Positions 27,499 to 30,160 of a stretch of DNA of 30,231 nucleotides are shown in pieces. Source of the DNA: a virus; IMG/VR virus record IMGVR_UViG_3300031758_000383, positions 1 through 30,231 of that record; one strand, 5' to 3'. The number at the start of each line of letters is the position of its first letter. Within the stretch, counting starts at the first letter, position 1. The notes below the pieces were generated by a model. The model was not told the DNA's origin. It did no database searches and worked only from the letters and a program-made list of their open reading frames with translations. The translations under genes were made by a program, and so were the position numbers.

Positions 27499-27612
27499 AG
27501 GCTATCTACAGCATATCTTTCGCCTTGTAAGCCGTAGGTCGTTGGTTCGAATCCAACTAGGAGCTCTTTGCTTCTATAGCTCAGCGGATAGAGCAACGTA
27601 AATGCATAGCCT
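27499..27612 (+). ncRNA. Y-RNA-like element B (clear circularly permuted tRNA)
   Basis: Terminal stem AGGCTAT (27499-27505)/ATAGCCT (27606-27612), then TACAGCATA on the 5' side and GTTGA after the 3' strand. The core is a tRNA read in permuted order: CTTGTAAG anticodon-loop-like remnant, variable GTAGGTCG, perfect T arm GTTGG-TTCGAAT-CCAAC (27541-27557), acceptor 3' strand TAGGAGC (27558-27564), linker TCTTT, acceptor 5' strand GCTTCTA (27570-27576), TA, D arm GCTC-AGCGGATA-GAGC (27579-27594). All seven acceptor pairs form (one G-U). The anticodon arm is replaced by the terminal stem, as in Y RNAs bound by Ro60/Rsr. Confidence 0.8.
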
Positions 27613-27626
27613 GTTGAAAATAAATG

Positions 27627-27949: not shown

Positions 27950-29383
27950 ATGACTACTTTTGTAAATGCTGTTGTTAATCAGTCTGCTCGTACTGAGAAC
28001 GGGATGAAGGCTCGTCAGAATACTGCTAACGCACTTACTGACTTGTTTTTCAAGATCGGTGCTATGCGTGGCCAAAACGTAATCCCTGCTTGGACTGCAG
28101 CTCGCGTGCAAGATCCTGACTTAGCAGCTCGTGTTGCTCTGTGGGCACGTGACGTTCGTGGTGGGGCTGGCGAACGTAAGATCTTCCGCGATATTCTTGT
28201 TGATCTCGCTAACACTGACGCTTCTCAAGCAGCTGCTTTGGCACATAAGGTTCCTGAGCTTGGTCGCTGGGATGACCTACTTGTTCTCGTTGGTACTCCA
28301 ATTGAAGAAGTAGCATTCTTTCGGATCAAGTGTGCCCTTGAAGATGAAAACGGTCTCTGCGCAAAGTGGATGCCTCGTCAGGGTGAAGTAGCTGCAAAGC
28401 TGCGTAACTATCTTGGCTGGACTCCAAAGTTCTACCGTAAGCGTCTGGTTGAGCTGACTAAGGTTGTCGAGACTCAGATGTGTGCTAAGGACTGGGATAA
28501 CATCAACTTCAGTCATGTTCCTTCTGTTGCATCTGCACGTTACAAGAAGGCTTTCGCTCGTCATACTGAAAAGTATAAGGAGTGGGCAGCTGCGCTTGTT
28601 TCTAAGGATCCAGAAGTGCGCGAATCTGTAAAGGTTAACGCTGGTGCAGTGTATCCTTATGATGTATTGAAGGGTTTGTATAACGGTTATCATACTAACT
28701 ATGATAAGGCAAACTACGATCACATCGTAGCGCAGTGGGAAGCACTTCCTAACTATATTGGCGATGCAAGCATCTTGCCATTGGTTGACGTTTCTGGATC
28801 TATGACTTCATCTGCGGGTGGTTATAGCTCTAAGTCAACTACTACATGTCTTGACGTAGCTGTGTCTCTTGGACTGTATCTTGCAGACAAGAACAAGGGT
28901 AAGTTCAAGGATACGTTCTTGACTTTCTCTAGCAAGCCTCAGCTGATGCACCTCAAGGGTAATATCCTTGATAAGCACCATCAGATGTGCACTTCTAAGT
29001 GGGAGATGAATACAAATCTCCACGTTGCTATCCAGAAGATCCTCGATGTAGCAATCGAGGGTTCTGTGCCTCAGGAAGAGATGCCTTCAATGCTTCTTAT
29101 CCTGTCTGATATGCAGTTTGATATGTGTACTAATTATGACGATTCTGCTATGCAGATGATCGCTCGTAAGTATGCTGATGCTGGTTATGTCGTGCCTAAT
29201 ATCGTGTTCTGGAACTTGAATGCACATGACAATGTGCCTGCTCGTTTCAACGATAAGGGTGTTGCGCTCGTGTCTGGTTTCTCACCAGCGATCGTCAAGG
29301 GTATCCTTGCCGCTGATCTTGATGACTTCACACCAGAAGCCATCATGCTAAAGACGATCATGAGTGATCGCTATGACTACTAA
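27950..29383 (+). CDS. Ro60/TROVE-like RNA-binding protein with vWA domain (DUF2828 type)
   Basis: 477 residues. The N-terminal 270 residues are alpha-helical repeats with family signatures ALTDLFFKIGAMRG, ALWARDVRGGAGERKIFRDI, VPELGRWDDLLVL and CAKDWDNINFSHVPSVASAR. The C-terminal von Willebrand A domain has an intact metal site: DVSGS at 280-284, Thr355 in NTNL, and Asp387 in LSDMQFD. This ring-plus-vWA arrangement is that of Ro60/Rsr, which holds Y RNAs on its outer surface and threads defective RNA ends through its ring; the signatures best fit the DUF2828 branch as I remember it. Five Y-like RNAs lie directly upstream. AAGGAG precedes the ATG. Role in infection is inferred: RNA surveillance or tethering of a nuclease. 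Confidence 0.85.
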   Translation: MTTFVNAVVNQSARTENGMKARQNTANALTDLFFKIGAMRGQNVIPAWTAARVQDPDLAARVALWARDVRGGAGERKIFRDILVDLANTDASQAAALAHKVPELGRWDDLLVLVGTPIEEVAFFRIKCALEDENGLCAKWMPRQGEVAAKLRNYLGWTPKFYRKRLVELTKVVETQMCAKDWDNINFSHVPSVASARYKKAFARHTEKYKEWAAALVSKDPEVRESVKVNAGAVYPYDVLKGLYNGYHTNYDKANYDHIVAQWEALPNYIGDASILPLVDVSGSMTSSAGGYSSKSTTTCLDVAVSLGLYLADKNKGKFKDTFLTFSSKPQLMHLKGNILDKHHQMCTSKWEMNTNLHVAIQKILDVAIEGSVPQEEMPSMLLILSDMQFDMCTNYDDSAMQMIARKYADAGYVVPNIVFWNLNAHDNVPARFNDKGVALVSGFSPAIVKGILAADLDDFTPEAIMLKTIMSDRYDY

Positions 29384-29413
29384 ATGATGAGAGTTACGGC
29401 TCTTATTGTATGA

Positions 29414-29475
29414 TCTAAGTACTAATTCTACGATCGGGTCGCGCGTAAGTTTCGTAGTACAGTCGCAATCTTAGA
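29414..29475 (+). other. Structured segment after the Ro-like gene
   Basis: Outer pairing TCTAAG (29414-29419)/CTTAGA (29470-29475) and inner CTACGA (29428-29433)/TCGTAG (29452-29457); a GTACTA/TAGTAC alternative exists. It lies in the 208-bp gap between the Ro-like and HNH genes. It lacks the TACAGCATA motif. No clear terminator. May be a further tRNA-like or processed RNA. Confidence 0.4.
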
Positions 29476-29507: not shown

Positions 29508-29558
29508 GGGTGGGCTGCAGAGACGGTGGTTCTGCGACGGACTGGATTTGAAATCTGC
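29508..29558 (+). pseudogene. Possible 5' half of a tRNA-Ser-like gene
   Basis: GGGTGGG (acceptor-like), CT, D arm GCAG/CTGC (29517-29535), then CTGGA-TTTGAAA-TCTGC (anticodon TGA, one mismatch). Five extra bases lie between D arm and anticodon arm. No T arm follows; instead the HNH gene begins. A 3' half that can pair with GGGTGGG lies at 30111-30160. Confidence 0.4.
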
Positions 29559-29563
29559 TTTTG

Positions 29564-29593
29564 TATAAATAAGTTCAAGGAGGACTTATTTAT
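29564..29593 (+). promoter_or_regulatory. Late promoter overlapping a hairpin that sequesters the HNH ribosome-binding site
   Basis: TATAAATA (29564-29571) overlaps the left arm of a perfect 10-bp hairpin: ATAAATAAGT (29565-29574), loop TCAAGGAGG, ACTTATTTAT (29584-29593). AAGGAGG is in the loop and the right arm runs into the ATG. Read-through RNA would fold and block initiation; RNA from the late box (start near 29577) would lack the left arm. Confidence 0.7.
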
Positions 29594-30017
29594 GATACAG
29601 AGGCAAAATAAAGTAACTGATGAAGAGATAATCTTATCTTATAATAAACATAAGCATTTAGGTAAAATCGCTGCTCAATTTAAGTTGCCCATGATTGAAA
29701 TATGGAGAAAGTGTAAGAAGCTTAGATTAGAATTTAATAATGGTGGTGGTCATAGAAAAAAAGTACCACTGTCAGAAATCTTAGAAGGACTACACCCATA
29801 TTTCCAAACAGGAAAAGTTAAGAAAAAACTTATACAAGAAAAAGTATTTGATTATAAATGTGTAGAATGTGGTATATCTCAATGGAATGATAAACCAATA
29901 ACTCTTCACCTAGATCATATAGATGGTGACAGTTCAAATCATATAAAATCAAACCTAAGATTTTTATGCCCAAACTGTCATTCACAAACAGACACATGGT
30001 GTGGAAGAAACAAGTAA
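29592..30017 (+). CDS. HNH homing endonuclease
   Basis: 141 residues. The N-terminal part (VTDEEIILSYNKHKHLGKIA, AQFKLPMIEIWRKCKKL) is a helix-turn-helix-like segment that may read the target site. The C-terminal HNH zinc nuclease has CVECG and CPNCH as metal ligands around LHLDHIDGDSSNHIKSNLRF, with the conserved DH and N. Such genes spread by cutting alleles that lack them. It lies between the halves of a possible interrupted tRNA and directly before tRNA-Tyr. AT-rich relative to surroundings. ATG 29592 is fixed by AAGGAGG; the frame is open further upstream without a start signal. Expression appears restricted to late transcripts. Confidence 0.88.
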   Translation: MIQRQNKVTDEEIILSYNKHKHLGKIAAQFKLPMIEIWRKCKKLRLEFNNGGGHRKKVPLSEILEGLHPYFQTGKVKKKLIQEKVFDYKCVECGISQWNDKPITLHLDHIDGDSSNHIKSNLRFLCPNCHSQTDTWCGRNK

Positions 30018-30018
30018 T

Positions 30019-30110
30019 GGGGAGTGCAAATAAGGACAGGTTGGTACCGTCGGATGACTGTAAATCATCTCCTTAAAGGCAAGAGGTTCGATTCCGTCCA
30101 CTCCCCACCA
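30019..30110 (+). tRNA. tRNA-Tyr (anticodon GTA), irregular
   Basis: Acceptor GGGGAGT/ACTCCCC, A, CCA; anticodon arm GATGA-CTGTAAA-TCATC; variable arm hairpin CCTT/AAGG. About eight extra bases separate acceptor and D stem, and the T stem (AGAGG/CCGTC) pairs poorly, so function is uncertain. Confidence 0.68.
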
Positions 30111-30160
30111 TCCGTTCCCTAAGGGTAACACTGGAGGTTCGAATCCTTCCCCACCTACCA
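30111..30160 (+). pseudogene. tRNA 3' half (T arm, acceptor strand, CCA)
   Basis: CCCTAAGGG resembles a class II variable arm; T arm GGAGG-TTCGAAT-CCTTC (30133-30149); acceptor strand CCCACCT, A, CCA. No 5' half lies directly upstream because tRNA-Tyr ends at 30110. It can pair with GGGTGGG at 29508. Confidence 0.5.

Follow-up and report, generated by a model that had tools for sequence, protein, structure and literature searches.

A free-standing HNH homing endonuclease gene with a predicted early/late translation switch, carried by a cassette that interrupts tRNA-Tyr in a T4-like phage

Hairpins that hide a ribosome-binding site and work together with a late promoter have been described for the endonuclease genes I-TevI, I-TevII, I-TevIII, segB and Aeh1 mobE, and for e, soc and 49 (PMC2988022, PMC3014915). 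In T4 I-TevI, which encodes the GIY-YIG endonuclease of the td intron, and also in e, soc and 49, the late promoter lies inside the 5´ arm of the hairpin, such that the ribosome site is hidden on early RNA and late RNA lacks the arm (PMC2988022, PMC3014915). In the Aeromonas phage Aeh1, mobE is a free-standing HNH gene that combines a late promoter with a hairpin sequestering the RBS, for which the effect was shown experimentally (Gibb and Edgell 2007 and 2009, cited in PMC2988022 and PMC3014915); it sits in nrdA and, as far as these citing accounts describe it, carries no tRNA. A further free-standing endonuclease gene, segB of T4 and T6, is found in a tRNA region with a hairpin and a predicted late promoter, and segB of T6 is linked to tRNA-Tyr, which it amplifies against the Septu defence (PMC13096335). 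In intronless homing (SegF, SegG, MobE), the endonuclease gene lies beside its target and is spread by co-conversion.

The DNA analyzed here, referred to as the window, is an IMG/VR virus fragment of 30,231 bases whose minus strand carries T4-type replication genes. Its DNA polymerase is approximately 50% identical to cyanophage gp43 over the full length, gp41-like, UvsX-like and Hsp20 genes are among its open reading frames, and a tRNA cluster occupies 25.4–27.4 kb. The phage from which it derives is an uncultured T4-like phage. At 27513–27626, Rfam gives a Y-RNA-like match (YrlA, 37 bits, below threshold) just ahead of a DUF2828/DUF7788 protein (27950–29383), the relative of which in an Ochrobactrum phage is annotated as Ro sixty-related; close relatives of the protein are found in at least 80 viral loci, and the two elements are possibly a phage Ro–Y RNA pair.

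The gene of interest (29592–30017; plus strand, as for the other parts of the cassette and its tRNA flanks below) encodes an HNH endonuclease of 141 aa (PHROG 14736 and 10822 HNH endonuclease, E about 1e-32). As in I-TevI, a predicted late promoter lies inside the 5´ arm of a hairpin that is expected to hide the ribosome site on early RNA and to be missing from late RNA, and the statement in our first-pass annotation that T4 I-TevI, soc and e share this arrangement is borne out by the literature (PMC2988022, PMC3014915). Unlike I-TevI, the protein is an HNH enzyme, free-standing within a tRNA array, and not associated with an intron. The same annotation set the HNH protein apart as unrelated to those known to be controlled in this way. 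An HNH gene is indeed found under the switch, but this is not new because mobE and I-TevIII are already HNH genes (PMC2988022, PMC3014915), and the switch itself is of a published kind. The likeness to mobE is one of arrangement. The segB product is a GIY-YIG enzyme and is not described as splitting tRNA-Tyr, whereas the HNH cassette in the window interrupts the anticodon and brings its own tRNA-Tyr. With respect to intronless homing, the window differs in that remnants of the target are kept on both sides of the cassette and a replacement gene lies inside it. Finally, F-TflIV-like HNH genes in the Escherichia T-even phages JEP6, ACG-C40 and BP32 likewise adjoin a tRNA array and are 58–60% identical to the window protein over 89 aa of the HNH domain, but the N-terminal 50 aa are unmatched and the neighbour is tRNA-Leu rather than tRNA-Tyr; the late box is absent from the 120 nt ahead of the JEP6 gene.

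The leader of the HNH gene

The T4-type late promoter box, TATAAATA (29564–29571), overlaps the left arm ATAAATAAGT (29565–29574) of a hairpin whose right arm ACTTATTTAT (29584–29593) reaches the start codon at 29592–29594. The 10-bp arms are 100% complementary across a 9-nt loop, TCAAGGAGG, and the Shine-Dalgarno sequence AAGGAGG (29577–29583) occupies the loop and the top of the stem. Box, perfect hairpin and ribosome site are thus exactly where the first-pass annotation had placed them, and the hairpin is longer than it described, as, on folding, further pairs close the loop and TGCTTTTGTA pairs with TACAGAGGCA in a lower stem that extends into codons 2–6. The whole fold has an energy of -21.3 kcal/mol (z -6.3; 0/200 shuffles as stable). 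Perfect hairpins of at least 10 bp (loop 3–12) number six in the window versus 0–2 in ten shuffles.

The box alone is weak evidence, because TATAAATA is present in five copies in the window versus 1.6 expected. Its reading as a promoter becomes convincing through its tie to the starts of genes in relatives: across 2 Mb of related contigs, 121 sense copies lie 20–50 nt upstream of called starts, compared to 23 antisense copies. When counted over whole contigs against the reversed pattern, most contigs are not clearly enriched, and it is therefore the position relative to starts that carries the evidence. Endonucleases left out, the genes behind the box in relatives include those for the tail tube protein gp19, the scaffold protein gp22, the capsid protein gp23 and baseplate proteins. 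The late promoter of T4-like cyanophages has been reported as NATAAATA (PMC2984593). A gp55 gene is found in 12 of the 17 relatives searched, the window itself being a 30-kb fragment without that region. By this placement, TATAAATA is the predicted late promoter of this group of phages. A search for sigma-70 promoters gave one weak match at 29387–29414 and none at the box.

The late transcript presumably starts at around 29577, judging by the spacing known for T4 late promoters, and its predicted leader is only 15 nt long. Sequestration was expressed as opening energy, the predicted cost of keeping the ribosome site unpaired in each RNA; this measure replaced the averaged unpaired probability, by which the two RNAs are not separated. 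In the read-through RNA the cost ranges from 11.7 (Shine-Dalgarno to ATG) to 19.6 kcal/mol (-19 to +15), compared to 1.8 to 5.4 kcal/mol in an RNA starting at 29577.

The Pfam HNH match of the protein, at 20.4 bits, is just under the cut-off of 21.4. In an alignment of 14 members, C90, C93, H109, N121, C126, C129 and H130 are invariant, by which the protein has the catalytic motif and the putative zinc cysteines of an HNH enzyme; a search of the family against solved structures gave no meaningful match. Relatives are encoded at 48 viral loci. Across the homologues, the order of leader elements is an anticodon-arm-like element, the TAAATA box and the ribosome site. The hairpin is strong in the window and in L007, L008 and L020, with arms that differ in sequence, and weak in others, so that in this family the promoter is more conserved than the hairpin. 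The close homologues L003, L006 and L016 keep the box with little or no sequestration beyond that of shuffles, and the hairpin is therefore not universal in the family. At three loci, the HNH reading frame overlaps the tRNA that follows (L004 4426–4512, L006 4423–4509, L012 1908–1983; by 18 nt in L004 and L006), and 5´ processing of this tRNA by RNase P would consequently sever the HNH mRNA at its stop codon or before it.

The anticodon-arm-like element of the window, GATTTGAAATCTGC (29545–29558), lies ahead of the late box and is conserved by alignment upstream of most homologues, where AGATTTGAAATCT and its variants precede the TAAATA box by a short distance. It is a candidate for an operator or for a relic of an earlier tRNA-Tyr anticodon arm. 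This raises the possibility that the symmetric DNA at the box and the upstream GATTTGAAATC serve mainly as an operator, which the HNH protein would bind to repress the late promoter of its gene; such autorepression could act by itself or alongside the RNA switch. I-TevI provides the precedent, as it represses itself at an operator that resembles its homing site (PMC2988022), and in most homologues the dyad just ahead of the box is conserved and resembles the anticodon arm of tRNA-Tyr, the likely target (GATTTGAAATC and GACTGTAAATC share 8/11 bases, by eye). The resemblance may, however, merely reflect the relic of an earlier insertion, and the hairpin arms are not conserved in sequence as an operator would be. 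We consider this explanation possible but rather unlikely. No intrinsic terminator was found to be formed from the GATTTGAAATCTGCTTTT element, and a scan for the junction element together with the box found nothing.

Box and hairpin across endonuclease families

A further possibility is that the promoter works but that the hairpin arises as a by-product, because the sequence around TATAAATA is an AT-rich palindrome, and plays no part in regulation. A box and a Shine-Dalgarno-rich leader do constrain the sequence, AT-rich leaders pair easily, and the three homologues with a box and no hairpin mentioned above would be in keeping with it. However, when box, Shine-Dalgarno sequence and ATG were fixed and the other 17 positions of the leader were shuffled, only 18/20,000 leaders folded as well as the natural one.

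The comparison with other genes bears on the same question. In a first set of 235 non-redundant box-bearing genes, 24 have a strong hairpin with its left arm from the box region, and 20 of these 24 are homing endonuclease genes. Strong box hairpins are thus found in 20/62 endonucleases versus 4/173 other genes (p = 9e-10), some of the endonuclease assignments having been made by hand with the hairpin scores already known, and with a p-value that, like the other gene-level values below, overstates independence because genes within a family are related. A cruder, hairpin-blind rule for endonuclease status gives 21/90 versus 3/145. The test at the level of protein families is safer in this respect, and here strong hairpins occur in 7/12 endonuclease families versus 4/114 others (p = 2.7e-6). 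By Pfam, the strong-hairpin set has matches to SegE GIY-YIG and several HNH families, and the endonucleases with weak hairpins also match HNH and GIY-YIG families; neither type is among the 25 commonest Pfam families in 149 of the other box genes. The SegE-like GIY-YIG genes of the main cluster have a strong hairpin in 8/8 cases. Three cultured cyanophages, S-CREM1, Bellamy and S-SM2, have box and hairpin at a SegE-like gene; in five other records examined beside these, the combination was not clearly shown. In many cyanophage records, L345, L350 and L351 among them, SegE-like GIY-YIG endonucleases bear the annotation 'NAD synthetase'.

Upstream-dependent sequestration was scored by comparing the opening cost with that obtained when the upstream sequence that late RNA lacks was shuffled. 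For 61 endonucleases, the cost is 12.4 kcal/mol versus 7.2 kcal/mol shuffled (z 2.83; 59% at p ≤ 0.05). The 173 other late genes give 7.1 kcal/mol with either upstream sequence (z 0.30; 17% at p ≤ 0.05), and the two groups differ at p = 1.7e-14. For a repeat of the test, two more sets of endonuclease loci were collected using only protein similarity; any leader with a 20-mer in common with the first set was removed, and endonucleases were recognized by profile with the hairpins ignored. The box is present at 74% of recognized endonuclease starts versus 5.6% of other starts in this held-out material. The 48 boxed endonucleases have a cost of 12.8 kcal/mol (8.2 shuffled, 5.1 in late RNA; z 2.41; 69% at p ≤ 0.05), the 33 other boxed genes have z 0.53 with 24% at p ≤ 0.05, and the groups differ at p = 1.1e-6. 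An earlier held-out set of 13 contigs contained no recognized endonuclease among 66 box genes (z 0.38), and it therefore only repeated the null for other genes.

Box genes that do not encode endonucleases thus have almost no excess sequestration, and different endonuclease families show recurrent hairpins with differing arm sequences. Both observations speak against a by-product of the promoter sequence, which we regard as improbable. The comparison indicates that the switch wiring is general across unrelated families of homing endonucleases and that other late genes mostly are without the hairpin. This breadth appears to be new beyond the published cases.

The cassette that interrupts tRNA-Tyr

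The whole switch module, as was missed in the first-pass annotation, is contained in a cassette that interrupts a tRNA-Tyr gene. The 5´ half of the tRNA (29508–29544), ending in ...GACGGACTG and running through G34 of the anticodon, equals, except for its first base, the intact tRNA-Tyr(GTA) of a related contig (L171, 2541–2631), in which it stands at the place of the HNH gene. The 3´ half, TCCGTTCCC...CCCACCTACCA, follows at 30111–30160 and also matches L171. The 566 bp in between (29545–30110) replace TAAA of the anticodon loop: the window reads ...GCGACGGACTG, 566 bp and TCCGTTCCC..., and L171 reads ...GCGACGGACTG TAAA TCCGTTCCC.... The flanks are identical at 155/164 positions on the left and 117/121 on the right, and the neighbouring Ro-like proteins share 91% identity. 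A chimeric assembly is unlikely because the right flank, 121 bp to the end of the contig, resumes exactly where the left flank stops. An intact tRNA-Tyr is also found in L179, and the locus is accordingly polymorphic at a defined site, with the cassette in the window and an empty site in L171 and L179; the uninterrupted 23-base site occurs in 39 viral contigs.

The cassette has a tRNA-Tyr(GTA)-like gene of its own (30019–30110), which starts 1 nt after the HNH stop codon and has an 8-bp acceptor stem, a D arm, a 6-bp anticodon stem with CTGTAAA, and CCA. It gives an Rfam tRNA-Sec match of 26 bits, below threshold, and was not called by ARAGORN because its T arm is weak; in the window, this gene may be non-functional. 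In 12/16 homologue loci, a tyrosine anticodon loop is found 16–41 nt after the HNH stop. Unusual folds are seen in the cassette tRNA-Tyr genes of L020 (4443–4534) and L016 (4431–4518), and in that of L020 a D-region strand, CTCTGC, is complementary to GCAGAG in the variable region. In two relatives, a tRNA with a TCA anticodon (called tRNA-SeC; L172 261–338, L173 1025–1102) directly follows tRNA-Tyr and is possibly an opal-suppressor or selenocysteine tRNA.

That the cassette is an intron, and that the tRNA survives by splicing of its halves, is scarcely credible and was rejected: the anticodon loop is a common site of tRNA introns and the halves fold as a full class II tRNA once TAAA is added between them, but neither end of the cassette supplies TAAA, so that the joined halves cannot restore the GTA anticodon, Rfam found no group I intron, and the cassette has its own tRNA-Tyr-like gene. 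A literature search, of incomplete coverage, found no description of a homing endonuclease that splits tRNA-Tyr and provides a replacement, and the tRNA-Tyr-interrupting cassette as the home of such a switch appears to be new.

Proposed mechanism and meaning

The best explanation of switch and cassette together, which we consider probable, is that translation of a free-standing gene for an HNH homing endonuclease is switched in cis between early and late infection. Early and middle transcripts of the tRNA array would read through the HNH gene, fold at approximately 29556–29604 and stay untranslated. Later, to judge from the box, its position and the presence of gp55 in relatives, a sigma factor of the gp55 type would start RNA at around 29577; because this RNA starts after the left arm, Shine-Dalgarno sequence and ATG would be open and the HNH protein would be made. 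Comparison with the empty site shows that switch and endonuclease share the 566-bp cassette at the anticodon of tRNA-Tyr. The HNH protein would then cut the anticodon region of tRNA-Tyr in related phages, as its position suggests, and copying of the cassette into the site would follow late in infection, at a time when the break can be repaired by recombination-dependent replication; the tRNA-Tyr of the cassette would replace the gene destroyed by the insertion. The timing switch of the first-pass annotation is thus real as anatomy, and as a mechanism it is well supported by comparison: it remains the best supported reading, in that opening of the ribosome site is predicted to be costly only in the read-through RNA and the enrichment among endonucleases is seen in two sets. 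One more speculative and rather doubtful extension is that the cassette is self-sufficient and mobile, with an HNH enzyme that cuts tRNA-Tyr at the anticodon, is gated late by the switch and possibly represses itself via a cleavage-resistant relic of the anticodon arm, and with a replacement tRNA-Tyr by which the phage stays viable and which may withstand host defences that cleave tRNA-Tyr.

A hairpin that is silent early and on late has been documented for a handful of T4-family endonucleases, and our comparison indicates a far wider spread. In uncultured T4-like phages, endonuclease genes of the GIY-YIG and HNH types, though unrelated, share the geometry of the switch while its sequence differs, and this recurrence points to repeated selection for delaying a self-inflicted DNA cut until recombination is active. 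Box and hairpin together provide a sequence signature for free-standing homing endonucleases. The cassette that splits tRNA-Tyr ties homing to this tRNA, a target in defence against phages, a link that is of interest because the amplification of tRNA-Tyr driven by SegB acts against Septu (PMC13096335).
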